Below, piece after piece: positions 48,163 to 64,000 of a stretch of 64,000 bases of DNA; positions within the stretch are counted from its first letter, which is position 1; the number at the start of each line of letters is the position of its first letter. The stretch comes from Magnolia sinica (Eukaryota > Streptophyta > Magnoliopsida > Magnoliales > Magnoliaceae). Made by a program: the position numbers and the translations under genes. Location: NCBI RefSeq assembly GCF_029962835.1, contig NC_080575.1, forward strand, positions 63,839,493-63,903,492, given 5' to 3'. The notes below the pieces were generated by a model that made no database searches, was not told the origin of the DNA, and was given only the letters and a program-made list of their open reading frames with translations.

Positions 48163-49141
48163 AATCAATTTTAAAGGGATTAGGGTGGATTAGATGGGAT
48201 TTAAAGGTAATGATGGTGATGTCAGTGGATTGTCTTAAGATCCTGAAAGGAATTCCAGAATATTTTTTATTTTTTTTGGGTTTGTCAGATTGTGACATCA
48301 ATTTGAATTTCTCTCTCTCTCTATATATATATATATTTATTTATAATGTCTTTTATGTTACTGGCACAAGCATTCATATATATATTGAGAAATATGATTG
48401 AAGTGCTAGACTAGCATGTGCATTTATACCATTTTTTTAAATGTTGCTGACTCATCCACCACACGTGTCATAAAACATGTTAATCCACTGCATTGCATTC
48501 ATCAGGAATCAAGCTTGGGGGTAAACATTTTTGGCTTTTATTTGAAAAATCAGGCTGTTTCAACTCCTAGTCTGGCCACTTATAAAATTATACTTAAAAA
48601 TTCTAAATATACATCGTATGGTTTACTTCAGTCTTGGAATAGTACAATTTTTGGGTAGTTTTTTTCATCATGATGAGCCAATACTATATGAATGGATTGG
48701 ATGCACAGGAAACAGTGGTAATTCACCATTAAAACTTAATGTGGGTTGAAGAAATTTTAGATAGAGCTGATATTTGTGTGGTTTCTTCATCCTAGGTCTT
48801 TGTAAGCATTCCATTGCCCTTGTGGTGTGAAGTCTTTAACGGGTACGATCCATCATTTAGCTTGATATATTAGAATTGCATGCGAGACTTTTCATCTATG
48901 CAAGTGGTTTAAGATTTTACTTATAAATTACATTATTAATTTATTATAAAAATAAAATGATTGCAAACTCCTTAATACATTGTATTTGGTAGATAATATC
49001 TGTATGGGTCTAATCATCTGATAGCACTTCCTTCATTTTCAACTTTTGAGGAGGATGGTGCATTAGGTTAATTTCCAACTTTAATTTTTAGTAAGGTGCA
49101 GGTTGAAAATGGACCCGTTGGTTAATCAAGATTTGACTGTA

Positions 49142-49640
49142 CACTACTAGAAAATAGGGAAAAGGCTACGGATAAAAACCGTAGCTAAAAGCCTATGGCT
49201 ACGGTTAAAATCCGTAGCACGACCGTAGCCATTGATGCCATAGCCATAGGTCTAAAAGCTATGGCTACGGATAAAATCCGTAGCTATAGAGATAATAGAT
49301 ACGGATTAAAGCCGTAGCCGTTGTTTCTGTAGCGGTCAAGGATTTACGGCTACGGATTATATCTGTAGCCAAAAGTTGGGCAAGAATCGTAGCAATAGGC
49401 TGAATTTATCAACAGCTACGATTTTCAGATACAATGCTACGGTTAATAGCCGTAGCTAATGAAAGTATAGGTACGGATTAAATCCGTAGCAATATTGTCC
49501 GTAGTTTAAAATTACATACAACTACGGATTTTATCTGTAGCTAAAAGTAGAATGAGAACCACAGCAAAAAGCTAATTTTAGCAAGAGCTACGGTTTCAAC
49601 AAAGGGCTACGGTGAATAGCCGTAGCTAATGCTTGTTGTT
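49142..49640 (+). mobile_element. 5' terminus of a different CACTA element with subterminal repeats
   Basis: It starts CACTACTAGAAAATAGGG and is followed by about ten palindromic repeats of the form GGCTACGG(N8-10)CCGTAGC in 480 bp (for example GGCTACGGTTAAAATCCGTA near 49195, and GGCTACGGTGAATAGCCGTA near 49607). Such arrays are the binding sites of the CACTA accessory protein. It is inserted in the transposase start exon of copy 2, with GTA (49139-49141) as the candidate 3-bp target copy. No transposase follows within the window and the other end is not seen. Confidence 0.85.
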
Positions 49641-50830
49641 AATAGAAAATTTAATTAGTAATGGCAGCTCTTACCATTGTAGTACACCCTGATAAATCAT
49701 TCATTCATTCAATCAAACACAATCATTCATTTCCATTCACAAAAGTACAATGCCAACATAATAATAGTTATATGTCTATTGAAAGTTCTCATTAACAACA
49801 AGATCCAATCGGCATCGACAGTAAATACTCATAATCACTTGCTCTTACAACTATTCCCACCTCCGGTGTCTCTTCCTTTTCTTCTGATTGACTTATCCAA
49901 CATTACTTTCTGCATGAAAGTAGCAAGTCAATACTACCATCTTCTCAATTACCAAAAAGAAAAAATGGGGGGCCTAGATCAAAGCTCACATTTCTCTTTA
50001 CATAGAACTCAAGTCTTAAATGAAAGAATTCTTCAAGAACTGCAAGAAAAGAAGGCACGGTGATGAGAAAGCATATATAGATTTAAGAAATTCATAGCAA
50101 GTACATAGAATAAGCAAGCTTACTTTGTTTGGGACTGTCATATTTCTTGATGACACCCCTCACGTCGAATGAGCATATCAATGATCTTACCGAGACTGAA
50201 CATGATGAGCATATTAATGATCTTACCGAGACTGAACATGGCCATCCCAAGACCTGCATTCGACAATATCGTGACAAAAATTTTCATGATTTGAGGCTTC
50301 TTAACACCCCATCTACAGTAAGAACGATGTTAGAAGAAAATCAGATTCACATGGAAAGAGCAACACATCTAAAATTCAAATCTCTATCAGAAAAAAAGAA
50401 AACTATAATTCCAAATACCCACTTTCAGTTCATGAAGAAAGACTAAAGATCACATTGAAATCCTTCGCTCTCCCCGAGGACCTGAAATTCCAAACTCCCA
50501 ACCTCAAATTCAAGAAAAAAGAGCAAAAGAACAAAGCTAAATTCAAATCTCTCTCTGAAAATCTACAAAACCCTTCACCAACTGTTTTATACAACAGCAA
50601 CTGTTCAACTAAACCCTTCATACTCCAACAACTGTTCCACACACTTTAAAAATTTGCTACCATTGTTCTGTACAACAACAGCATTAAGATATATTTAAAC
50701 AACAACGGTGAGTGAAGGGCTAGTGAATAATCATACATTTTGAACTGTGTTTGGACAGAGATGCTAAAAAAGATTATTTTCTGTTGATCTGAAGATTCCA
50801 GTGAATAATCAGATATGATGCATCATGTGT
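49641..50830. other. No gene recognised; contains a 36-bp tandem duplication (50168-50239)
   Basis: The unit gagcatatcaatgatcttac... occurs twice (50171 and 50207). Nearby ORFs on both strands are short and have no recognisable domain. Confidence 0.45.
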
Positions 50831-51156
50831 TCATGAATCTGTAGCTCTACCATTTTGCAGTCTTGAATTAGCATGCACAGATGATGCCTGCAACCTTCTC
50901 AATTCCTTAGAAAGTTGGTGGGAGATGAGCTGGCCAGAATGGGCTTGAAGGACCTGTGAAATATTCATGTGCATAATAGTTCTCTATGACGCTATGTATA
51001 GGTAATAGAAAAAGAAATTTTGGAAGTAAAAACCTTTAAAAGAGTAGAACTTGTCTCTAGATAAAGATTCATGACAGAGCTGGAATGTTGGAAAGGATTG
51101 GCAGATGCATCATTTGTTGCTGCAGAAGGTATTTCTTTTAAGAACTTAAGGCAATC
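50831..51156 (-). pseudogene. Unrecognised two-exon gene 3' fragment
   Basis: Two adjacent exons with canonical sites: 51156-51034 (acceptor TTCCCAG, donor AAAG|GTTTTT), encoding DCLKFLKEIPSAATNDASAN and onwards (41 codons), and 50953-50831 (acceptor TTTCACAG), encoding VLQAHSGQLISHQLSKELRR and onwards (40 codons) to a TGA stop. They join in phase 0 and are open throughout. I do not recognise the protein. It may be the 3' end of a host gene captured by the CACTA element, because no upstream part is visible and its neighbours are unrelated gene pieces. Confidence 0.45.
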
Positions 51157-51299
51157 CTGGGAAAAAAAGAAAGAAAGACGTCCATGAGTGGACTCTTAAA
51201 CATTTTCATGTTCAAGAAGCTTTAAGAGAAAAAAAATGCAGCATATATTTAGGACAAGTTCATTCATACAATGGCAATGAAATAAAGCATGTGAATCAC

Positions 51300-51640
51300 C
51301 TCGAAAAAAGTATCCTTGTATGTGCACAGAAGTTTTGGATCAAGCTTATATTTTGGTTTAAATGGACCACACCATATGAAACAGATAAAATGTTCTACGG
51401 TCGAAAATTTCTTGGGGGGCACAAAAGTTTTGGATCAAGCTTATATTTTTGTTTAAATGGACCACACCACATGAAACAGATAAAATGTACTACGGTTGAA
51501 AATTTCTTAGGGGGCACAGAAGTGCTGGATCAAGCTTATATTCTTGTTTTCCATTCATCCATGTCTGTATGATCTTATGAACAGGTTGGATGACAAATAA
51601 ACATCACTGTGGGGTCTACCAATCCAATTTCCTTAAAATG
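51300..51640. repeat. Foldback-family repeat with internal 95-bp tandem duplication
   Basis: The block 'agttttggatcaagcttata...' starts at 51331, 51426 and 51521 (period 95). It contains the local family motif atggaccacaccacatgaaa. The ORF across it (51291-51572) is a by-product of the repeat. Confidence 0.75.
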
Positions 51641-52539
51641 TCATGTCCACATTCAATTGGAAAAGTCAAAATGCATGTGCAAGATTTTCCAGAGGTGAAC
51701 TTTGGGAATAAATTCATGATGGCGCCACCAGATGAATGGTCAGGTCACAGAAATGTGGAGGCCAACAGCACCATTGCTAGCAAAACTAAAAACACCTTTT
51801 TGTTCGGCCAAACATCATCTTTATCCTTGTAAATTCATCAGAAATTGGGTCAAGTAAAAAAGAATTGATGTATTTTTTAAACAGTTAAGATTTATCCTTC
51901 AAACTTCATCAGGTTTGAGAAATCAAGTTCCGTTTTCAACTATTTTCATCCGAGGAAAACATCAAGATTCATGCATTCCGTGTGAAAGCTGACCCCAAAT
52001 GGCTGGGACAAGGCTACTACTATGATGACAACATGCCTTTACAGTGTATCCTTCTCTTCTGATCGATAAGCTAAAGCAGAAACATTTCAATGCAATATCA
52101 CAATATCGCAGAGTCAGATCCATTTATCTGCTGCTACTGGGGCCAACTAAGAGTCTGGACCAAGACAGTGACAAGAAAGGAATGCTAATAATAGTTCATT
52201 TATGACCAGAAGACGCTTGCTTTTTGTCCAGTTATGACAGAATTTCATTGTTAGGAAATGAATGAATGACCAGCCAAGTTTTCAAATAAATCAAAGTTAG
52301 ATTATGCTGCATTTGGACTAAAATACCCAAGAAAAATTTATCAACAGATAGCTAATCCCATGATATACTACATAAGAAAAGCGTTTGTTGTCTCAAATTG
52401 CACCCACTCTTTACAATATTGGCAACATTGGACTGGATTGGACTGTCCCACATGAATTTTTTTTTCTTGGGGATTTCAGTCCAAAAGTAACTGAAACCTC
52501 TAGCTCTATAATTCAAGAAATGAGGGAATGGAGACTTAC

Positions 52540-52850
52540 TGCAATACATCGACAACACGACCACGGTCCATTAAGAACTCCCGTAGCTGCAACAGAGCAT
52601 CAAGACGATCAGACAGTGCTATGAATTATATTAGTCTTTGTTGCTCGTAGTTGTCACCTTTATCATTACCTTCGCATTCTCCTCTGCTTCCTGCTGAAGT
52701 TTCTTTGACTCTTGGAACACCCTTTCCATGATGAGTTCTTGTTCAGCAAAAGAAAAAAGAAAAAGATTCCTCCTTTTCACACTTCTCCTGTTCAGCCGCT
52801 ACCCTTTCTGCCTCTGTAGCAGCCAGTCGGGCTTGGAGAGCTCGGCACAT
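52540..52850 (-). pseudogene. Fragment of a CUE-domain-type coiled-coil protein (two exons)
   Basis: Exon 52850-52670 (acceptor ATACCAG, donor AAG|GTAATG) encodes CRALQARLAATEAERVAAEQ...EKEES and, in a shifted frame, EQELIMERVFQESKKLQQEA..EENAK. Exon 52586-52540 (acceptor TTGCAG, donor GTAAGT) encodes LREFLMDRGRVVDVLQ. From memory this is the C-terminal coiled coil of a plant 'ubiquitin system component CUE' protein. The first exon contains a pyrimidine-rich stretch (about 52744-52765) where the family's usual residues are missing and the frame changes, so this is a decayed fragment. The CUE domain itself is not visible. Confidence 0.55.
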
Positions 52851-54106
52851 CTGGTATAAAATGCAAGATAAGGTTAGAGAAGAGGTGAGGTTTGAAAATC
52901 TTAATATCTTTCTATCAAAACAGTGGGTAGCATTTGAAACAATTGATACTATCAAACATAATAATTGCTAAAATTAAATATATTATTTAAAACATAATAT
53001 CTTTCTATCAAAACAGTGGGTGGCATTTGAAACGCCAAGTGCATTCGCACTTTTGCCAATCCACACATGCTAGTTCTAGCACAAAAATTATAACAGCTTA
53101 AAAAATGAAAAAATAAAATGAAATGATAAAACTCACCTTGAAGCTGTTGTTATTTTTTCTTCCCAATCAGTTAGGATTGTCATATCAGTGAGATTTTCTA
53201 GAAATTCCCAATTCCAAAATGGGCCATCAGATCAACAGTCTAGATTACTACACCACGGGCCTGCCCCACGTATAAAAATATATTCTCAGGTCTGAGGGCC
53301 ATAGACACTTCTGTCTAACCTGAAAGCATTTGGCTGAAAACCGATCCAACAAACGTCCTTGGTTTTGCTGCAAATATATATAAGCCATCATTAGTGACAA
53401 GTTCTCAATCAGGTAGCTACACATTCCATAAAATTTCAAGTTTATAGGCTATGACATATTCATTTACAAACAATGATGTAGAGATTGGTGCCATGTCTTT
53501 TTCTTTTCTTTTCTTTTTTGTTTTTTGTCATTTTTGGTTTCATGAAAAACAGAACCCAGATTCAGATAGCAATGAACTGAACACAACATTATTCATGCAG
53601 TGCTCATACCAGGGTCATGATATGATGATACCAATGCCAATCACTGTTCAAATTCACTGTTCAAACTAGATTAATGTTCAAATTCACTGTGCAAAACCTC
53701 AGAATTTGATGGCGTGTTTGCATGGTCCGTGTCAAAGAATTCGATGACAGGCATGCATCCATTTTAAACCAGTGCTTTGGAAATAAATAACCTATAATAG
53801 GTGGTTGTTTGATTAATTCAAACTAGGAGGAATTTACCAAGGCCTCTAATTGAATGCACAAATAACCTCCCTGATTGCTGTTGCTGCTGCCACCATCAAA
53901 GTCGCAAACAAGAACAACTTGCATATCAGTGAGCTTCACTTCAAGTCATCATAATTTGGAAACATTGAAACTGTTTAAATCAAATTCATTCATGGTTGAA
54001 AAGAGACGTCTACTTCTCACAAACTTTCCTAGGAGCCTTCTATATGTATATCACAAACCTGACCTTTAGAGAGCATGTGGAGGCATGGACAACTTACAGA
54101 GCACCA

Positions 54107-54410
54107 TCACTTTTCACCCTCACTTGGTGGCTTATCTTCATCTTTCTTTTGCTCTATTTGACCTTGGAGAGATGCCAACAAATCCTTAACTGAAGGATCA
54201 TTAGGGTTAACTCCAGGAAGCGAAGCAAGAATAGATGACAAGAAAGATTGGTCTCCAAGCACCTTGTTCATGTCATTCTGGCTCTGACATATCTGTATCT
54301 CCCACAAACATATCACCAGATTGACTAGATCTAGGATCATCCATTGACATTGCTAGGGCTTGCTCAAGCAAGGCAGTCTCATCCTCCGTGAGATCAGCTC
54401 TTTTAACACC
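54107..54410 (-). pseudogene. RPN10: Fragment of 26S proteasome subunit RPN10 (UIM and C-terminus)
   Basis: The exon begins after an AG acceptor (GGCAG|GGTG) at 54410 and encodes ADLTEDETALLEQALAMSMD, a ubiquitin-interacting motif. After a frame change it encodes NDMNKVLGDQSFLSSILASL and PGVNPNDPSVKDLLASLQGQ, ending SEGEK and a TGA at 54107. This is the well-conserved C-terminus of plant RPN10, the proteasome ubiquitin receptor. The von Willebrand domain and a second UIM are absent, and the two frames show an internal deletion or frameshift near 54270. It is a gene fragment, not a working copy. Confidence 0.75.
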
Positions 54411-55077
54411 CTGCCAATACAATTCATATAAGAATTCAATCGATTTCTATGTTAAGAAAACAAAAAAAAATCCTGACTGATGGCTCACAGCTGATCTCTA
54501 CTGCCGCCTGGAGCATGCAAAAAGAAAAAAGAAAAAGAAGATGAATATGCTAAATGGGTAGTAGTCGAAATCGCCATTTCGTTTCATTTAGGTGGGAAGC
54601 AGGCCCTTAATTTCAATCAAATTCAAAAAAGCATTCACTTTGACAAAAAACGAGTAACAAGCATGCTGCTAGAGGGGAAAAGGCCGAAACTGCAAATTTA
54701 GATGATTTTGAGTCTGAATTAAAATACATGATATGCAATGCCAACCTCATTCAAATTAGAATAATGATACCTAATTCAAGATTGTTTTTTTTCCATTTTT
54801 CTTTGTTTCCTTTAGTTCAATTCAACTGAGCATGCCTTGCATCCAAACACGCCTTACGTTTAATATAACAACCCATCACCTAAGACGAGAACCCATACTC
54901 CCAACAATGACCCCCTTACAATAATTAATAATTTAATTGGCAATGGACGCCCATTTAGACTGATGTCAACTGAACATCCAAGATACAATGAACCAGCCAT
55001 TTTCATCACTCGACTCAAAAACATGAAGGACAATGTGTTGTGATACTGGGTCTAGCAAAAATAGATCAAGCTGCTAC

Positions 55078-55217
55078 CTGTTCAGCTTGAGGAGCTACAG
55101 GTGGTGAGTTGGCAATCATACCCATTTTCTCTTCAAACAGCTGCTCAATTTCTTCACTCTGCCCTGCTTTCCCAAAAACATCCAATACAGACTCGTGGAG
55201 TGCTTTCCCAAAAGCAT
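55078..55217 (-). pseudogene. Splice-bounded exon, possibly from a PPR protein, in phase with the RPN10 exon
   Basis: The exon (acceptor TTCTTTAG at 55218-55219, donor CAG|GTAGCAG at 55077) encodes AFGKALHESVLDVFGKAGQS, then EEIEQLFEEKMGMIANSPPV, then APQAEQ. The VLDVFGKAGQSEEIEQLFEE part looks like a pentatricopeptide repeat helix pair, but this is a weak call. It ends in phase 0, and so does the next exon downstream (RPN10, GVKRADLTEDE), so a chimeric transcript could be read across the junction. That would join parts of two unrelated genes. Confidence 0.35.
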
Positions 55218-56159
55218 CTAAAGAATTATGACTTGCAAATTACAATGCTTTTGGATTTTAGAGTGTGACTGTCCCATTGTACTATTTTTACGAATAGCAA
55301 ATTTTTAACAAAATGGGACTTTTCATGTTAGAGTGAACTAATCCCATCATTGTGAGAGGAAGTTCTAAGATTTTTAGGCAATCTTGCAACTTTCATTGCC
55401 TCAGAGCATTAGTTGCTTTTTCTTCTTCTTTTTTAATTCATTAGGGTGTTTTTGGAGTTATAAAAGGTTATAAACATTTTCCTGATTTAGTTAAATTGGA
55501 ATCCATTGTAGAGTCGATTCTGAATTCTGAATTGACAGTTGGGTGTACTAACAAGCTAACAAAAAAAAAGCACTCAAACCTCAGATATACATAACCGAGG
55601 AGCAAAAAAAATCAGATGGTTTCAGAATCTAATGATGGATCAAACCACCAAGTCCTATATATACTGATTCTACGTTTTCTTCATGTTACTCCCTAGAGCA
55701 TGTTTATCTCTGTGTACAAATAAAACAATCATGTTGATGGTTTGCCTTTATCTCCATGGTAGAGTTCAGTGGACCCTCCTAAATAGGACCTCTCATCCCA
55801 TTGTTGAGAACACCAACCCAAGAATGCTACATTCATTACATGATTCTGTTTTGTCTTCTGAGTTTCAACCCAATGGTTTGCAAAGTAGAGTTCAGTGCCT
55901 GCTTACCTCCAGAAATCTCGACATGGTTTGCAAAGTAGATATGATTTCCAGCTAAACCACCTACAACCAGCAAACCAAGTAAATGCATTTGTTTTTACAA
56001 TGCAACAAAAAGGAGAGGGAGTTACCATTGTTGATCGAACTTCATATACAACATACCCACAACTTGCCAAGAAAAAACCACAACCAGTTAAACTAGCAAT
56101 CAAGTAAGCAACTAAAAGAATTCTTTAATCATATACAACAAACCTAAATTACTCTTAGG

Positions 56160-56510
56160 CAAGATTGAGAACAAAATCATTATCTCCAGCTTTGCCTAAT
56201 GACAACAGTCCATTTTACAAGGATCAAGTGGAGAGACCTACAAGCTATCATGAGTCGAAATGGCGTGATGGTTTAGGATTCTCAGGACAAGAGCATGGTT
56301 ATTATGATCACTTGAGGGAAGAGAAGAATGATGAACTTGGTATTTCCTCAGGGAAAGAGAGAACTCACACATGGGGTTGCAACAGATCATCCCATTGCTC
56401 CTGATACTGTTCATAGATACCCAAACTATGATGGAAACATTCATCATTTTAGTTTCCATTCATTGCATGAAGCTCAGTCAGAAAAAAAAAAAAGAAAAAA
56501 AGATCGCTAC
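56160..56510 (+). pseudogene. Coding-like fragment of an unrecognised gene
   Basis: The stretch encodes LPNDNSPFYKDQVERPTSYH, then ESKWRDGLGFSGQEHGYYDH, then LREEKNDELG in one frame, and in another frame GVATDHPIAPDTVHRYPNYD and FSFHSLHEAQSE. The amino-acid texture is that of a real protein, with a frameshift in the middle. I do not recognise the family. Neighbours are fragments of unrelated genes. Confidence 0.35.
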
Positions 56511-57296
56511 CTTAATAACTAAAACCACAAGCTTTGCATACATATCAATAACAGCAAATGAGAGATGCTGGACTTGTTGTGGCGTTTGTAGGGACAATGA
56601 GCTTGGATTAATCATGTCAGTGGCCAAACAATTTGCTACAGAAATTTCTTGAAATTATAGGTAGAAAGAGAAGGAAAACTCTTAACAACTGTGAGGGTCT
56701 GGAGGATTCTCATGGAAACATAATAAAAACCATAGAAAAACTTTACCATGAGGATTCGGAAAAAGCGATCCGTGTGATCATCCCCTTTAAGCAACCCACT
56801 TTGTTGTAACTGTGAGATATAATGGGTATAAGCTACATCATACACAGTCAACTAAAGTTCTGCATTTAGCTTTATAAAAATTTAGACTATATTTAAATTT
56901 GTTTATGGATTCTTTAAATATTTTCACGCTTTTAATTCGATAGTCTTCTGTTTGTTTAATTCATTTCAAGGTTTTTTGAGACTGATCAGGTTATTAGCTT
57001 TGAAAGAATTCCAAGTATGCTACATTAGCTTTTTTGTTTTTACTTTATCAGGAATACATGGACTTCAACTCAAGAATACACATGATATACTCATGTATTC
57101 AGTTTATACTAGTGAGGTCCATGATTCATTTACACAGAGCATCAGTCTCAGCTTGGCAGGAGGGGAAAAGGAAGGTGGGTGACCCAACTGGAAAATGATT
57201 CATTTATACCCATTTTTTGCTTTCACATGGCCTTTACTGTTATGCAACTGTAACACCAGCCAGCTTTTCTGTGGTCACAATTCCATTTGCTGACAG

Positions 57297-58044
57297 GAAC
57301 ATTGTCTCCTGATATGTGCCAATTGACTGGCCTATGGTACTTGTACGTGGATACTAATGGAACCTGCATCAATGGTTGTCTGGGAATTTATATTTGAGAT
57401 TTTGTTCATACCCTTGTTTGAACCATCTCTACCGGTGTTGTTGCAGTGATGTGATCGGGACAATAACCTCTCAGGAACCGTACCGGACAACATTGGGAAT
57501 TGTACGAGCTACGAAATCCTGTAAGATGGCTGGCATTCCTTTTGGTGTGGGTGTTGTGCTTGTTCTTTCTTCAATTGTTTATGGTCTATTGACTGTTATG
57601 ACTTCCAGGGATATTTCTTACAATCAAATCACTAGAGAGATTCCTTACAACATTGGTTTCCTGCAAGTAGCTACATTGTATGTTTCCATCTCTCAAAAGC
57701 TTTGCTGTATCTCTTTCCATCTGCAAATAGTTATTCGTTTCATCTACTAATCAACCAACTAGAATCATTTAGCTACTGATATTTTCGAACTCTTCTAGTT
57801 AAACTGCTTGCTGTAGTATACTCCGCTGAATCTCTATTACAGCTGACAATCTGCAACTTTTTTTCTTTTATTTTTTGCTCCAGTTGTCATCCATTCTTGT
57901 TGCATTTAATTAGGTTTGTTTTTCTTGATAATGGTGTGCTGACCCTAATGAAAAAAAACTTTCTATTATTAGGTCTCTTCAGGGACATAGGCTTACTAGG
58001 AAGATTCCAGAAGTGATAGGACTCATGCAAGCTCTTGCTGTTTT
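57297..58044 (+). pseudogene. ERECTA-family LRR receptor kinase fragment (four LRR exons)
   Basis: There are four consecutive exons with canonical introns: 57297-57342 (TLSPDMCQLTGLWYF), 57447-57520 (NNLSGTVPDNIGNCTSYEIL when read in the family frame), 57609-57677 (DISYNQITREIPYNIGFLQV) and 57973-58044 (SLQGHRLTRKIPEVIGLMQA). Plant ERECTA/ERL receptors share this exact LRR order and one-repeat-per-exon structure. The second exon is 2 bp longer than the 72-bp norm, which breaks the frame. No signal peptide, other LRRs or kinase domain is present. The fragment lies on the strand opposite to the RPN10 and CUE pieces. Confidence 0.8.
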
Positions 58045-60585
58045 GTAAGTTTTGTACTGTCTTCTCAAATTCTTTTCATTTTTTTTTTCAAAATTTCTTT
58101 TCTTCCTAAATAACTGCATGCATCTTTTAAGAAATATGTTCACATAAACAAATCCAACTATAATTTTGACTATAGTGCAATTTTTTTTTGCAAAAATGAA
58201 AATTCTTAACTGACCTTTCAGAGGGGATGGTGAATGTTTACATTCTCATATGTTTGAAGGTGATCTCCTAGTTTCATGTTTCCTGTATTTAATTGAAATG
58301 TACGCTAGTGGAAACAAAATTTAGTGAGTGGAAATGCAATTTTTAGTTATCAATAGAAAAGGAAAATCTTTATTTTCAGTTTCTATGTGAAATATGAAGA
58401 GATTGCGTGTGCATGTGGGGTGTTTGATGAAATTCCTAAGAGGAATCTGGCACTGGCCCCACCTGTTCCTAGCTCCCTTGATCCTTGATGTGGTGGAGTT
58501 TGTTTGGACAGCTGGCCGCTGTTGGAGATGGGCCTATGTAAAAGCATGTTTACAAGTAATTGATTGAGTAAATATTCAACCAAGCTCATATCTAACAACA
58601 GCTTGACAGTTTCCAATCACCATCTAGCAAATTGTGACACAGGCCCATTGAGTTGGATGTAGATTGCATGGTGACTCCAACACCACAGCTAAAGTGGTGT
58701 TGGGGCATGGTAGCATGTGATTGGGCCAAGACTCCTGTCAAAAATGAGCCTGGTCAAGTACATACTCGACCTAACAACTCAGAAACATGTTTTGTATGGG
58801 CTCCATTTCTGACTGCAGCTCATGGCCACCATTGAGCTATTTGGTGTTGGGTCACCATGCAATCCGTGTCCAAGCTGAGTCAGAACTAAGCCTTGCTCAA
58901 CAGAAAATATCTATGGGATATGGCAGCCTCTGAGATGGGAGGCTGCACTTAGAATATAAACAAAAGACATCCATTCATTTCAAGGGGTACCACGCCATAG
59001 AAAACCATGGATGGAATGAATAAAACGGTTGGCCAATGGATTTAATCAAATGTAATGTGTAGCCGTCATGATGAAAGTATCCAATTTTTGCACTCGAGTT
59101 CTCAAGGTGGGACTTATATTTTAAACAGCTACAGCTTGGATGTTGTATACATGTGACACATTGGCTGTACTCATTCAATGGACATTAAAAGTTAGTGGAA
59201 AATGCTCCTAAAAAAAGGAATTATACCATTCCATTGGGCTGCATCTCCATTAGGGTGATGCTTCTTGGGTTTCATCAAAAACCACATTTGCAAATCAGAT
59301 TTGTTGTTTAGGTCAAGTTAGGTGGTGTTATGCTTAGGCTTAAGTCATCTTCAAGCAGCCCAAACCTCATAAACATGAGTTATCACTAACATATATGATA
59401 TAAATGTAAATTTTCATCAGATCACCAAACAGTAGTATAGATCTCATCTGCATTGGACATTGAATTTCTTGATTTGATTGTTATCCAAATTGAGGCTAGC
59501 TTCTAATAACATGTGTTGCTCATTTTTTCTTTCTCAGTTCCATTTTGTCTTGTTCATGACATGGATGTTCAAGACACCCTTTCAGATACAACGTATGTGC
59601 AGGGTCATAGATTTGACCAATCCCTTCAAACCATGACTTTTGGATCATGGGATTGAGGGTTCTTAGTTCAAAAAGGAAAAAAGAAGAAGAAAGAAGCGAT
59701 GTTGGGTTCACATTTTCCCTACTTAGATGTAGGTATTTTCTCATGACTACATGTATGTAGGAAACTAGCTAGAACTTATGTAGGCAACATCACCATCTGA
59801 GACTTTTGTACTATTGTTGCTACTTCTTAGAACCCAAAACTATAGCTAGAGGTGCAAATGGACTTGATTGGCTTGCGGCAAGCTTGAGTCTACCCTAGCC
59901 AGGTTTGGGCTTAACCTAGAGGATTACAAGTCAAATGTAAGCTAAGTTTTTAGTCCCAGTACTTATGTATATGGTATGTATGTGGATTACAGATATACAA
60001 TGATGGAACAATGATATCACTTCCATAGAACAAGAAGTTATCACAACTTACTACTGATAATGCTAGTGGGAAGATCAACAACTTCGGAAACTTGGAACCG
60101 TTAGAGGGGTAGAAGTGCAGACTGAATTCGATGATGAGGTTGAACACAAGGTTATACTTATTTATCAGGGTATGAGAAACTCTCTTGTAATTTTATTTTA
60201 TTTTTCAAATCATCACAATGTGTAAATATTAATGTGAATTGGACTGCGTGTGAACTAGATTACACCAATCTTGTTGAAGGTTTTGAGCAAAACGATTTAT
60301 CTTGGGTCTCATTCAACCAAAGTCTTAATGCTTACATATATATTAATATGTAGATAATAATGCAACCAATTTGAATATGCATAAATTGTAAATTATAAGT
60401 TTGATATATCATGCAATTTTGTAAATTTGACATGTTTGGGTTTTTCTTCTTTTCATGGGCAAAATAATGGAATTACACATCAATGAGGACATGTACAATA
60501 ATAGACAATCATTGGAAAGATGAAAGAAGAACATCCAAAATCTCACCTTGCATGCCAGATTGGACCTTTTGAATCATCTTCAAAT
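58045..60585. other. No gene recognised
   Basis: Noncoding, with pieces of the foldback family (for example near 58980-59170) and a hAT-like start (tagaggtgcaaatgg near 59848) without a matching end. A short stretch near 58400 (GVFDEIPKRNLAL) resembles a PPR motif, but it is too short to call. Confidence 0.35.
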
Positions 60586-61132
60586 CTACTCTTGCCTAAT
60601 AGCACCAAATAGGTCCTCAAATGAACGTTTAGGAGCTTCAGTACGAGAAACCATCTCCACCACTTTGTAATGAGACTCTGGGTACAGCAATGCCTCAACA
60701 GAAACTTCTGCAACCTGAACTCTGGATATAGAACCTTCGTAAAGAGTATACTGTGAAAGAAACCCCAAGAGACAGATCATAAATAGAACTGGCATTTTAG
60801 TCTATTTTACCAAAGAAATGATCTTAGCATAGGTGTGCTTATCAAACAGAAACAAGTAGGAGCGAATGAGTGTTCTGTACCTCAAACTCCATGACTATAT
60901 TTCCGCTAGGCGGGTCATTTTTTAGGCCCCCAGGCGTAACAATTGTGTAGTTTATACCAGATCTCCTGATTGGTATCAATGTGAGCCCGAACACATTTAG
61001 AATGATGTAAGCCGGATTAAGGATTTGGCCCATTGTAGCTCCATTCATAAGAATTGAACTGATAAGAATGAACCTATTCACCCCGATTTTTTGGCATGCA
61101 TCCACAAGGTTCACCGTGCCAAAATTATCAAC
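60586..61132 (-). pseudogene. 3' fragment of an At2g34460-like NAD(P)-binding Rossmann protein
   Basis: Exon 61132-60881 (acceptor TTTGCAG, donor GAG|GTACAG) encodes VDNFGTVNLVDACQKIGVNR, FILISSILMNGATMGQILNP and SGINYTIVTPGGLKNDPPSG. Exon 60750-60586 (acceptor TTTCACAG) encodes YTLYEGSISRVQVAEVSVEA and RTEAPKRSFEDLFGAIRQE, then a stop. This matches the C-terminal half of the plastid short-chain-dehydrogenase-like protein I know as At2g34460. The frame is open and the exons join in phase, but the family's KLQAEQY segment is missing between TLI and RRSGINY (an in-frame loss), and the N-terminal half with the GxxGxxG cofactor motif is absent. It is a captured or truncated fragment. Confidence 0.75.
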
Positions 61133-61168
61133 CTGCAAAAAATTCAATCTATTAAATAGATAAACCAA

Positions 61169-61286
61169 TAAATTATTTATGAGAGATCAAGTTACATATT
61201 CTGGGATATAGTTACAGCCCAATTTTTGGTTATTGGGTTGTAACTATATCCCAGAATATGTAACTTGATCTCTCATAAATAATTTA
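61169..61286. repeat. Near-perfect hairpin, 54-bp arms and 10-bp loop
   Basis: The left arm 61169-61222 and right arm 61233-61286 are exact inverted copies except at one position, where a plus-strand transcript would form a G·U pair. The centre is cagcccaatttttggttattgggttg, split here as cagcccaa, tttttggtta, ttgggttg. It is not part of a foldback MITE I recognise and lies between gene fragments. Confidence 0.95.
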
Positions 61287-61478
61287 GAGAAAAACACCCT
61301 GAAAAACCACGGAAAAAGAATACAAATTCCCTTAACCAAAACAACCCAAAATAAATATGTAAATGACAATTGTGCTGAGAGTAAACAGATTAGTGTAATT
61401 AGGAGTAACTGCCAAGAAGAAGATAGAAATACAAAAAAGAAAACACAATGATGATAGAGGACAACATGTGATTGTTAC

Positions 61479-62106
61479 CTGAATGAGAAACTCAAAGTTA
61501 GATGGTTGTTTAGCCATTGAGTAATATCCCTGTATTTGATTGAAGCCCAATGCATATGAATAAGGAAGACCAATATTCAAAGTTCAAACATGTTAAATGT
61601 ACTTCCTCGTTGTCATACCTTAGCTCAACCATGCATCTTTCATTCCAAGCAGCACTGCAATGGAATGCATGCAATCTGCTGCAATCGGCCTAGTTGAATG
61701 TTCAACTGTAGAAAATTACCTTTAGTGCCAAATTCGGGTTGAAGAAGAGCATCTGTAGCTAAAACCAATTGGAATACCATATGCACCTGACCTGACCCTT
61801 CAATCTTGCATGATGCACTTGACCTGCACCAACAAGGAGAAAAGATGTTAAACATTATTAAGAAATAAGAGAAAATACATGCATGAGTGTTGAATGTGAG
61901 TGTATTTGGATATGAAATGTTTGGAGAGGTTCATTTTGTAGGTATGATGAAGAAGAATACAAAAAGAGATGTTAGTAGGTACAAACCATTTTTTTCAAAG
62001 TTGAAAACCACATTATGGAGGTTGTCAGCAACAACAACCATGACAGGGTCATTGTCAACTTCAAGAATAGGCTCAAATTTCACAAACACGTCTTTATGTC
62101 TCCATC
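61479..62106 (-). pseudogene. Splice-bounded exon-like pieces of an unrecognised gene
   Basis: Three exon-like pieces lie on the minus strand: 62106-61987 (acceptor ATGTAG, donor ATG|GTTTGT; HKDVFVKFEPILEVDNDPVM, then VVVADNLHNVVFNFEKN), 61823-61720 (acceptor GTGCAG, donor AAG|GTAATT; QVHMVFQLVLATDALLQPEF) and a piece ending at 61479 (donor CAG|GTAACA; NIGLPYSYALGFNQIQGYYS). I do not recognise the protein, and the acceptor of the third piece is unclear. They precede the At2g34460-like fragment on the same strand but do not match that family's N-terminal half. Confidence 0.35.
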
Positions 62107-62129
62107 CTACATTTTATTCAATGAAGTAA

Positions 62130-64000
62130 GAAAACACATGATCAAAAACAGTGAATCTTAATCTGTGAATACCGCTACAGCTGTATGGAAAGGTTAGATC
62201 TAAAATTTCTTATACATAGTAAGATAGGCATGCAAGAAATCTGAACTTCAACAATAAAAAGGGTCCATTTTGAACATGCACCTTACCAAAAAAATAAAAT
62301 ATTTTTCACCCATTCACGAATCTAATTCTAAACACATGCATCTATGATCTTGATTTGAAACCATCTAAAACACCAAAGAGTTTTGAAATCTTATCTCAAG
62401 GATGAGAAATCACAATGGTCTATATGGAGAGCCACCTAATTGATGGCTTGGATCTCGATTGGCATTTATAAATATATAAAGATATGATTTTTCCTTTTTC
62501 TTTTTTAATTGTATTTGTTAATGAAACCTATTTCGAAAATCTGGTTATAAATCACATGTATTTAGTGCACTGTCTTCAATTTTTATTTGCTTGGATGTAG
62601 AGATTTAATTTTGTTATGATTAATATACCTGAGATTGATCAGGGGTGGGAAGTGGGCCCCAATTGGGTCCAATACACTTTCCATCATTCTCCACCCTTGG
62701 TTAGCCAATGATAGGATTCACACATAGCCAACTTTTAGTATGGATAATTGTATACTAGACCTGTCCTCTTTGCAAATTTACAACCCTTGTTTAAGAGAAG
62801 ACTTTGATACTCTGTTTGAGTGTGATGGATGATACACAGGCACTTGGAAATTGCATGTGGAATACAAGTAATTCAAATAAAACACTCTCTGGCAAGTTTA
62901 AAATGTATTATGGGCCAAAAATTAGCTCAGTTCATCAACTGACTATTGGATTTGTGGATATTTATTGGATGGCTGAAAGTTGAAGATATCGAATGGTCTT
63001 CTTTCAACAAACAAGTGTCCATGAATGAGAGGTTAGAATTGTTAATTTGTAATATTGTGTTTTGCAATTTACTCAGTTTAATTGAGTTACTGTCCATGTA
63101 CAATTTCTCAGTGGCCTTGGATGGTCCACCTTCAAGGACCCTTCTCCACTGAAGATAATAGAGAGGATCTAGTTATAGCTTGCTCGTTGGAATTGTCATT
63201 TTGCTCCTGATATCTTACCTCATCTTATTCTAGCATACCTCTTATTACATGTTGCTTAAGAATATGGGAACTTTTGGACTCTGTGTTATATGTGGTTGTC
63301 GTGGTAAAGTGGATGGCTAAATTTGATATGGACTCAGCAGGTTTGGATGCCCCACCTGCTGTTGAAATGTGTTCTTCAACAATAAGTGCTTTTCAATGAG
63401 ATTTAGATGGGGAGCTATTGCCTAGTATTTTTGTTTCTTCCTATCTATCTCATGCATGGATGTATTTGAATTTTTGTTGCAGTATGGAAAGTATTTCGAA
63501 GAAAATGGGGAAGTGCATTGATGAAAATTTGAATTGGATAATAAATTGGCATTGATGGCTTAATGAATGATATGTTACAAATGGAGCAGTCCATATAAAC
63601 TGTCCAACCAATGATACTCATCGTAGATGGTTGAAAATCACAGATGAAAAATGCTATTCATCAGTTTTTACTGTCAAATGTTTCTAAGGATGTCCTAATC
63701 TAGTTTTACAAAGTGACTGAGCATGAATGATTTACAATTCAAGGAATAATGTAGAAATCAACTGTAATGATCATGCTCTCGCCTTTCGGTTTTTGAATGT
63801 TTGTGATAATGGAAATGATGAATAAGGATTTGAAACTACAACCAAGAAACTTCATAATGATGGGTCTAAATAAAGTTGTCTTTGAGATAATCTATCTTTG
63901 GTTTAATGAAATGGCATTGGGTGAAACACATTGCACTCATCATAATGTGGCACATCAGTCTCATGATCTGTCACCATGGTGAGTGGGCCATAGCTGGAAG
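62130..64000. other. No gene recognised
   Basis: Only short ORFs without domains. A plus-strand ORF at 62946-63152 and another at 63797-63982 show no conserved motif. The window ends inside uncharacterised sequence. Confidence 0.4.

Follow-up and report, generated by a model that had tools for sequence, protein, structure and literature searches.

The window analyzed here is a stretch of 64,000 nt from Magnolia sinica (GCF_029962835.1, NC_080575.1:63,839,493-63,903,492, forward strand), and its right-hand part is occupied by a Pack-CACTA-type element that carries pieces of several host genes. The left part of the element belongs to one lineage (A) and contains fragments of a CUE-type protein, of RPN10, of a CNOT1-like protein and of an ERECTA-type receptor; the right part belongs to a second gene-carrying lineage (B), with a fragment of an At2g34460-like protein and one exon that comes from an unnamed multigene family. 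The element is very probably a non-autonomous Pack-CACTA-type hybrid that was built stepwise and in which an A part was fused to B. Positions without a prefix are those of the window, which lies on C3, and positions with a C prefix are genomic. Counts from genome searches are lower bounds throughout, with only the best candidates being scored.

Ends and Target Site of the Element

An earlier note on this stretch described a CACTA 5' end with subterminal repeats at 49142. This end is genuine and belongs to a complete CACTA-type element. The 18-bp terminus CACTACTAGAAAATAGGG is the sole match at ≤3 mismatches on either strand of the window, and the subterminal words CTACGG/CCGTAG occur 17 times in 49142-49641 versus 21 times in the remaining 63,500 bases. 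The left terminus of the element reads CACTACTAGAAA and the right terminus ...GGTAGTG, and terminal inverted repeats beginning with CACTA are present. The subterminal words mark both ends, with 17 in the first 500 bp, eight in the last 800 bp and three in the 14.9-kb interior.

The earlier note ended the element at 62106 and recommended a search to the right for an inverted end with a second GTA. In the further 50 kb examined on that side, both were found: the element runs past 62106 and beyond the window to C3:63904874, 1,382 bp right of the window edge, where ...TTTTTTTGGTAGTG is followed by GTA. The GTA on both sides of the 16,241-bp element constitutes a matching 3-bp target-site duplication. 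A 3' end was seen in seven of the ten related copies examined (designated c1, c6 and so on) and in the lineage-B element on C11. The 3-bp flanks agree in six of eight complete elements (GTA in the element itself, CAC in c11, TAC in c16, CTT in c1, ATA in c6 and ACG in the lineage-B element), for which the probability by chance is 4e-10 at 1/64 each.

Another CACTA-like 3' end lies at C3:63932495, 44 kb downstream of the 5' end and 27.6 kb past the end of the element, with subterminal repeats that are apparently split by an insertion. It was rejected as the partner of the 5' end, as its flank is CTT instead of GTA and the nearer, GTA-flanked end fits and is common to other copies.

Table 1. Features of the hybrid element, by position in the window
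Feature	Position	Strand	Remarks
Pack-CACTA-type element	49142..64000 in window	+	16,241 bp in total; last 1,382 bp beyond window
GTA target-site copy ahead of 5' end	49139..49141		second GTA after 3' end, C3:63904875-63904877, outside window
5' terminal inverted repeat and subterminal CTACGG/CCGTAG repeats	49142..49640	+	
Lineage-A part (5' end and captured module)	49142..58232	+	
CUE-type protein fragment	52667..52844	-	two search blocks; name from the earlier note
RPN10 C-terminal coding part and 3' untranslated region	53688..54404	-	93.6-94.5% identical to processed retrocopy at C12:54.31 Mb
CNOT1-like exon fragment	56750..56845	-	weak assignment
ERECTA/ERL-type receptor fragment	57300..58128	+	exons with introns, degenerate
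A/B fusion seam	58225..58232		GGATGGTG here, GGATGGTG in A (c6), GGATAGTG in B (C11)
Lineage-B part	58225..64000, onward to 3' end	+	layout as C11:15760667-15769184 over ~7.16 kb
2.17-kb repeat nested inside At2g34460-like fragment	58258..60425		flanks TTTGA at 58253-58257 and 60426-60430; also in lineage B
At2g34460-like fragment	60426..61222	-	coding exons and introns, 21 nt lost in frame; a further 31 bp at 58227-58257
57-bp inverted re-copy (fold-back) of the end of the At2g34460-like piece	61229..61285	+	
Exon fragment, unnamed multigene family	61985..62110	-	also in lineage B (C11, C5) and c19

Two Lineages Joined at One Seam

Lineages A and B agree at seven of the eight letters of the seam, and the sequences surrounding it are otherwise unlike. 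A search with 2.7 kb spanning the seam, in which 40 of 273 candidates were scored, returned 16 places where the match ends at 58232 and three where it starts at 58225 or 58226, and the seam is spanned only by the element itself and a copy on C19 (c19). Blocks of the lineage-A part are 91-98% identical in c6, c7b, c11, c12, c16 and c19. Both c6 and c7b carry the captured module up to 58232 and then share a different stretch of ~1.7 kb. Past the seam position, lineage A in c6 has additional minus-strand pieces that resemble exons; four of these gave no Pfam match, and the one searched against PDB had a best E of 0.34.

Lineage B is represented by an element on C11 (15760667-15769184) with CACTA ends 8,518 bp apart and an ACG target copy on both sides. 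It contains the At2g34460-like piece, the 2.17-kb repeat, the unnamed exon and the 3' end at nearly the same spacing as the right part of the hybrid (~7.16 kb), as determined from the sequence of its left 1.65 kb and right 81 bases and from search matches for the middle. Its own 5' end is diverged (84.6% over 319 bp), and its At2g34460-like piece extends ~100 bp further along the gene. The closest relatives of the hybrid's 3' end are found on C11 (95%), C5 (89%) and at C3:18.3 Mb (84%; 40 of 3,488 candidates scored), and the At2g34460-like piece is present at all three as well.

Up to 62926, the aligned blocks of the C19 copy are 97-98% identical to the hybrid, and past this point the copy has the 3' block of c11, which belongs to a third lineage, at 95%. 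At this join, ~30 bases from 62866 are re-copied as filler. In pairwise comparisons of ten copies, the 5' ends agree at 89-99%. The 3' ends of seven copies group into classes, with 95-96% identity inside a class and 70-82% from one class to another.

Recurrence of the Captured Module

Most of the 5' 559 bp is present at 88-100% identity in 40 places (40 of 2,164 candidates scored), and 176 occurrences were counted for a stricter terminal pattern of 30 bases, versus none for its reversed control. Within ≤25 kb downstream of the 40 scored 5' ends, the CUE piece is found behind 31, the RPN10 piece behind 21, the ERECTA piece behind 12 and the A/B seam behind two, a fragment missed by the search being counted as absent. 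It follows from this recurrence that amplification by the element, and not the decay of resident genes, accounts for the pieces. In the 27 copies with ≥92% identity, the CUE piece is present in 23, RPN10 in 20, ERECTA in 12 and the seam in two, and the corresponding numbers for the 13 copies below 92% are eight, one, zero and zero. This distribution would fit an inward growth of the captured module over time. The tallies are based on 29 of 31 search rows for RPN10 (excluding the C12 retrocopy and the C4 gene), on 45 of 48 for CUE (excluding second blocks within a given copy) and, for ERECTA, on the 18 rows reaching query positions 948-950, excluding 16 places that end at 889/890 and the remaining short rows. 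The copy at C2:2463116 was scored as lacking CUE and RPN10, for which matches 29.6 and 30.9 kb downstream exceed the 25-kb limit.

The view of the earlier note that this is a gene-carrying Pack-CACTA-type element is therefore borne out by complete ends, target copies and recurring gene pieces. That note had also named two observations that would speak for a different origin. The first, separate resident genes decaying in place, does not apply within this genome, as the same joined pieces occur at many unlinked places and candidate parents lie elsewhere. The second, that each fragment sits in its own smaller transposon, fails for the module as a whole, which keeps the same order in several copies; it holds in part for the nested repeat at 58258-60425 and for the ERECTA and CNOT1-like pieces, which are also found in other contexts.

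Origin of the Gene Pieces

The RPN10 piece matches PDB 8amz_W, a VWFA-domain protein, with E 1.5e-18, and PDB chains named RPN10 or proteasome subunit 4/S5a with E 1e-5 to 9e-5. The parental gene was seen in part at C4:100.77 Mb, and a retrocopy at C12:54.31 Mb is unbroken across several exon borders of the C4 gene and has a poly(A) tract. The piece stays continuous where the C4 gene departs from the coding frame and is close to the spliced, polyadenylated retrocopy, and it is therefore probably RNA-derived. A 74-nt stretch bordered by GT...AG is present in the retrocopy and missing from the piece, which may reflect an alternative splice event fixed via mRNA, or a plain deletion. Like processed retrogenes, the piece looks spliced and has a relative with a poly(A) tract; unlike them, it ends without a poly(A) tract and was amplified within a DNA transposon.

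The At2g34460-like piece matches Pfam NAD_binding_10 with E 2.7e-11. It aligns through both exons and introns to a locus at C3:114.37 Mb that has open exons, showing that genomic DNA was captured in this case. The name At2g34460 stems from the earlier note and agrees with the nature of that protein; none of the searches returned the names At2g34460 or CUE. The capture of exons together with their introns holds for the At2g34460-like piece and probably not for the RPN10 piece, which looks spliced.

The CUE piece gave no Pfam match above the cut-off, and its exons match uninterrupted frames at C14:70.57 Mb and C11:63.55 Mb, which are candidate parents on the basis of search matches. The ERECTA-type piece, with its two exons joined, has the PDB chains ERL1/ERL2 as best matches (E 4e-38 to 9e-38); against Pfam, it matches LRR_1 only, with E 0.0033, which is under the cut-off of that family. 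Of the identities given in the earlier note, those of the RPN10, ERECTA-type and At2g34460-like pieces are supported, and that of the CUE piece, whose exons match open frames, has no Pfam support. The alignment to parent genes that it recommended succeeded for the At2g34460-like piece, for part of RPN10 and, with candidates, for CUE, and the parents of the ERECTA and CNOT1 pieces were not found. The search for the ERECTA parent with an ERECTA protein sequence was swamped by other LRR proteins. A locus on C10, detected by DNA similarity, was considered as an intact ERECTA parent; it is degenerate and shares a 221-bp flank with C17 at 88%, and is therefore a repeat and not an intact gene. The ERECTA piece ends at 58128/58129 in 16 other places (40 of 88 candidates scored), and at C7:59.25 Mb it lies <6 kb from another CACTA end of the same type.

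The CNOT1-like exon was not recognized in the earlier note. Its best PDB match has E 0.038 and it has no Pfam match. Genome-wide, 73 matches were found, many of them with open frames, and at least five lie ≤7 kb from a listed CACTA end of the same type (C1:51.45, C3:83.73, C6:88.85, C7:31.83 and C8:21.19 Mb), so that this exon was possibly captured earlier, by a sister family.

Transposase

In the part of the element within the window, no transposase domain was detected by Pfam in 11 stop-to-stop open reading frames of ≥88 aa, and none of the PF02992 matches (150 of 1,669 candidates scored genome-wide) lies inside the element. PF02992 transposases are plentiful in the genome. Given the lack of a transposase domain in these frames, the element is assumed to have been moved in trans by the transposase of another CACTA element. 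At C8:31710189-31710824, the search returned a PF02992 match with stops that lies 6.8 kb inside an end at C8:31717629 and is a possible transposase-bearing relative. At C6:88.55 Mb, a PF02992 match is located 34 bp outside a pattern end.

Proposed Formation of the Hybrid and Alternative Explanations

In the proposed sequence of events, lineage A would have gained host sequence inside its 5' end: the CUE piece, then the RPN10 piece of mRNA origin, then the CNOT1-like and ERECTA-type pieces. Subsequently, an A element would have contributed its 5' part, joined at 58225-58232 to most of a gene-carrying CACTA element of lineage B. The sister copy on C19 has the 3' end of a third lineage in place of that of B. 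The accumulation within one element that the earlier note proposed is incomplete, as it missed that the right part very probably arrived by fusion with a second Pack-CACTA element. The joins carry repair-like scars, i.e., the 8-nt seam with one mismatch, the 57-bp fold-back and the filler in c19, and a fold-back is the type of scar expected from copying during repair. Error-prone repair probably produced the joins, either by deletion between neighboring elements or by template switching. A fusion of neighboring insertions would fit if all DNA between the joined parts was lost, and template switching during the repair of an excision gap would give a near-identical outcome, toward which the filler and the fold-back lean.

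Deletion alone could also generate partial copies from one long ancestral element, with A-only and B-only copies as internal or terminal deletion derivatives and without any fusion. Such derivatives do exist, as in c1 the initial 1.15 kb of a c12-like element is followed by its final 3 kb, and the 5' anchor is common to long and short copies. However, the 16 scored places match A only to 58232, and c6 and c7b run on into their common other stretch. A single ancestor would hardly yield both this A-only continuation and the distinct 5' end and longer At2g34460-like piece of the lineage-B element on C11, making this explanation unlikely. Ordinary ectopic homologous recombination between elements of the two lineages would be favored by the fact that both are repeated and have common ends, but the seam sits between sequences with little more than its own few letters in common and the second join in c19 bears re-copied filler, so that this route to the hybrid is improbable as well. 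That independent insertions and gene decay produced the locus, the CACTA ends being incidental, agrees with the nested repeat, which is flanked by a 5-bp copy, and with the occurrence of ERECTA and CNOT1-like pieces elsewhere. The identical joined order on several chromosomes, at 91-98% identity and starting from a common 5' end, renders this explanation very improbable.

Several observations weigh against the stepwise fusion of A and B. Internal deletion, which c1 exemplifies, also gives 5'-anchored nested copies, and the order of capture is derived from presence or absence and identity bands and not from a tree. The 3-bp flanks of c19 and c12 do not match. The next RPN10 exon of the C4 gene was not found within 3.5 kb beyond the C4 exon, so that the missing intron is deduced. 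A comparison by eye of 100 of the 176 pattern ends with the 150 listed PF02992 matches confirmed no transposase-bearing partner with matching ends.

Multi-gene capture by DNA transposons is usually deduced from its end products. The single genome of M. sinica preserves the fused product and a recombined sister alongside relatives of both donors, with readable seams, and the fusion model can therefore be tested base by base and the joining of elements separated from the direct capture of genes. It is tentatively proposed that the elements form a reticulate, still-growing family, in which Pack-CACTA lineages swap 3' parts by repair-type joins. If true, captured pieces, including mRNA-derived ones, would be combined across elements more often than new genes are taken directly from the genome.

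Relation to Known Elements

Pack-CACTA elements and the fusion of Pack elements are already known, and the element is a well-preserved example and not a new kind. As far as the published accounts are considered here, the capture model for Pack-CACTA holds that neighboring insertions fuse and inner ends are lost, and for a rice Pack-Mariner the forms A, B and AB have been described, similar cases being stated for CACTA and hAT (PMC8903248, PMC13317346). The element shares with the Pack-CACTA/Pack-TYPE elements in these accounts its CACTA ends, 3-bp target copies, several gene pieces and, in the frames examined, no detected transposase (PMC8903248, PMC13317346). In contrast to the examples covered there, the two donor lineages and their seam can be read base by base, two gene-carrying elements are joined directly, and a sister copy has a third-lineage 3' end. 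The soybean element Tgm-Express1 is likewise of the CACTA type and carries parts of five unrelated genes, with both exon and intron sequence (PMC1947982). It is 5.7 kb long, resides in an F3H intron and was shown to give chimeric transcripts, whereas the Magnolia element is 16.2 kb long and has many related copies with differing subsets of pieces.

Nested Repeat and Minor Features

The 2.17-kb repeat within the At2g34460-like piece is unclassified; at C9:13.05, C2:95.08 and C4:21.04 Mb it has the same right end and different left extents. The exon at 61985-62110, not named in the earlier note, belongs to the unnamed family. Matches to Frizzled, ParB, Phage_Gene47 and similar families fell below the Pfam cut-offs and were treated as chance. 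A short minus-strand frame at 55066-55239 weakly resembles PPR (E 0.018, below the cut-off of Pfam). The sequence at 62258-62399 is repeated as a 142-149 bp unit at 87-89% in c12, c7b and c1 and is possibly a small nested element.

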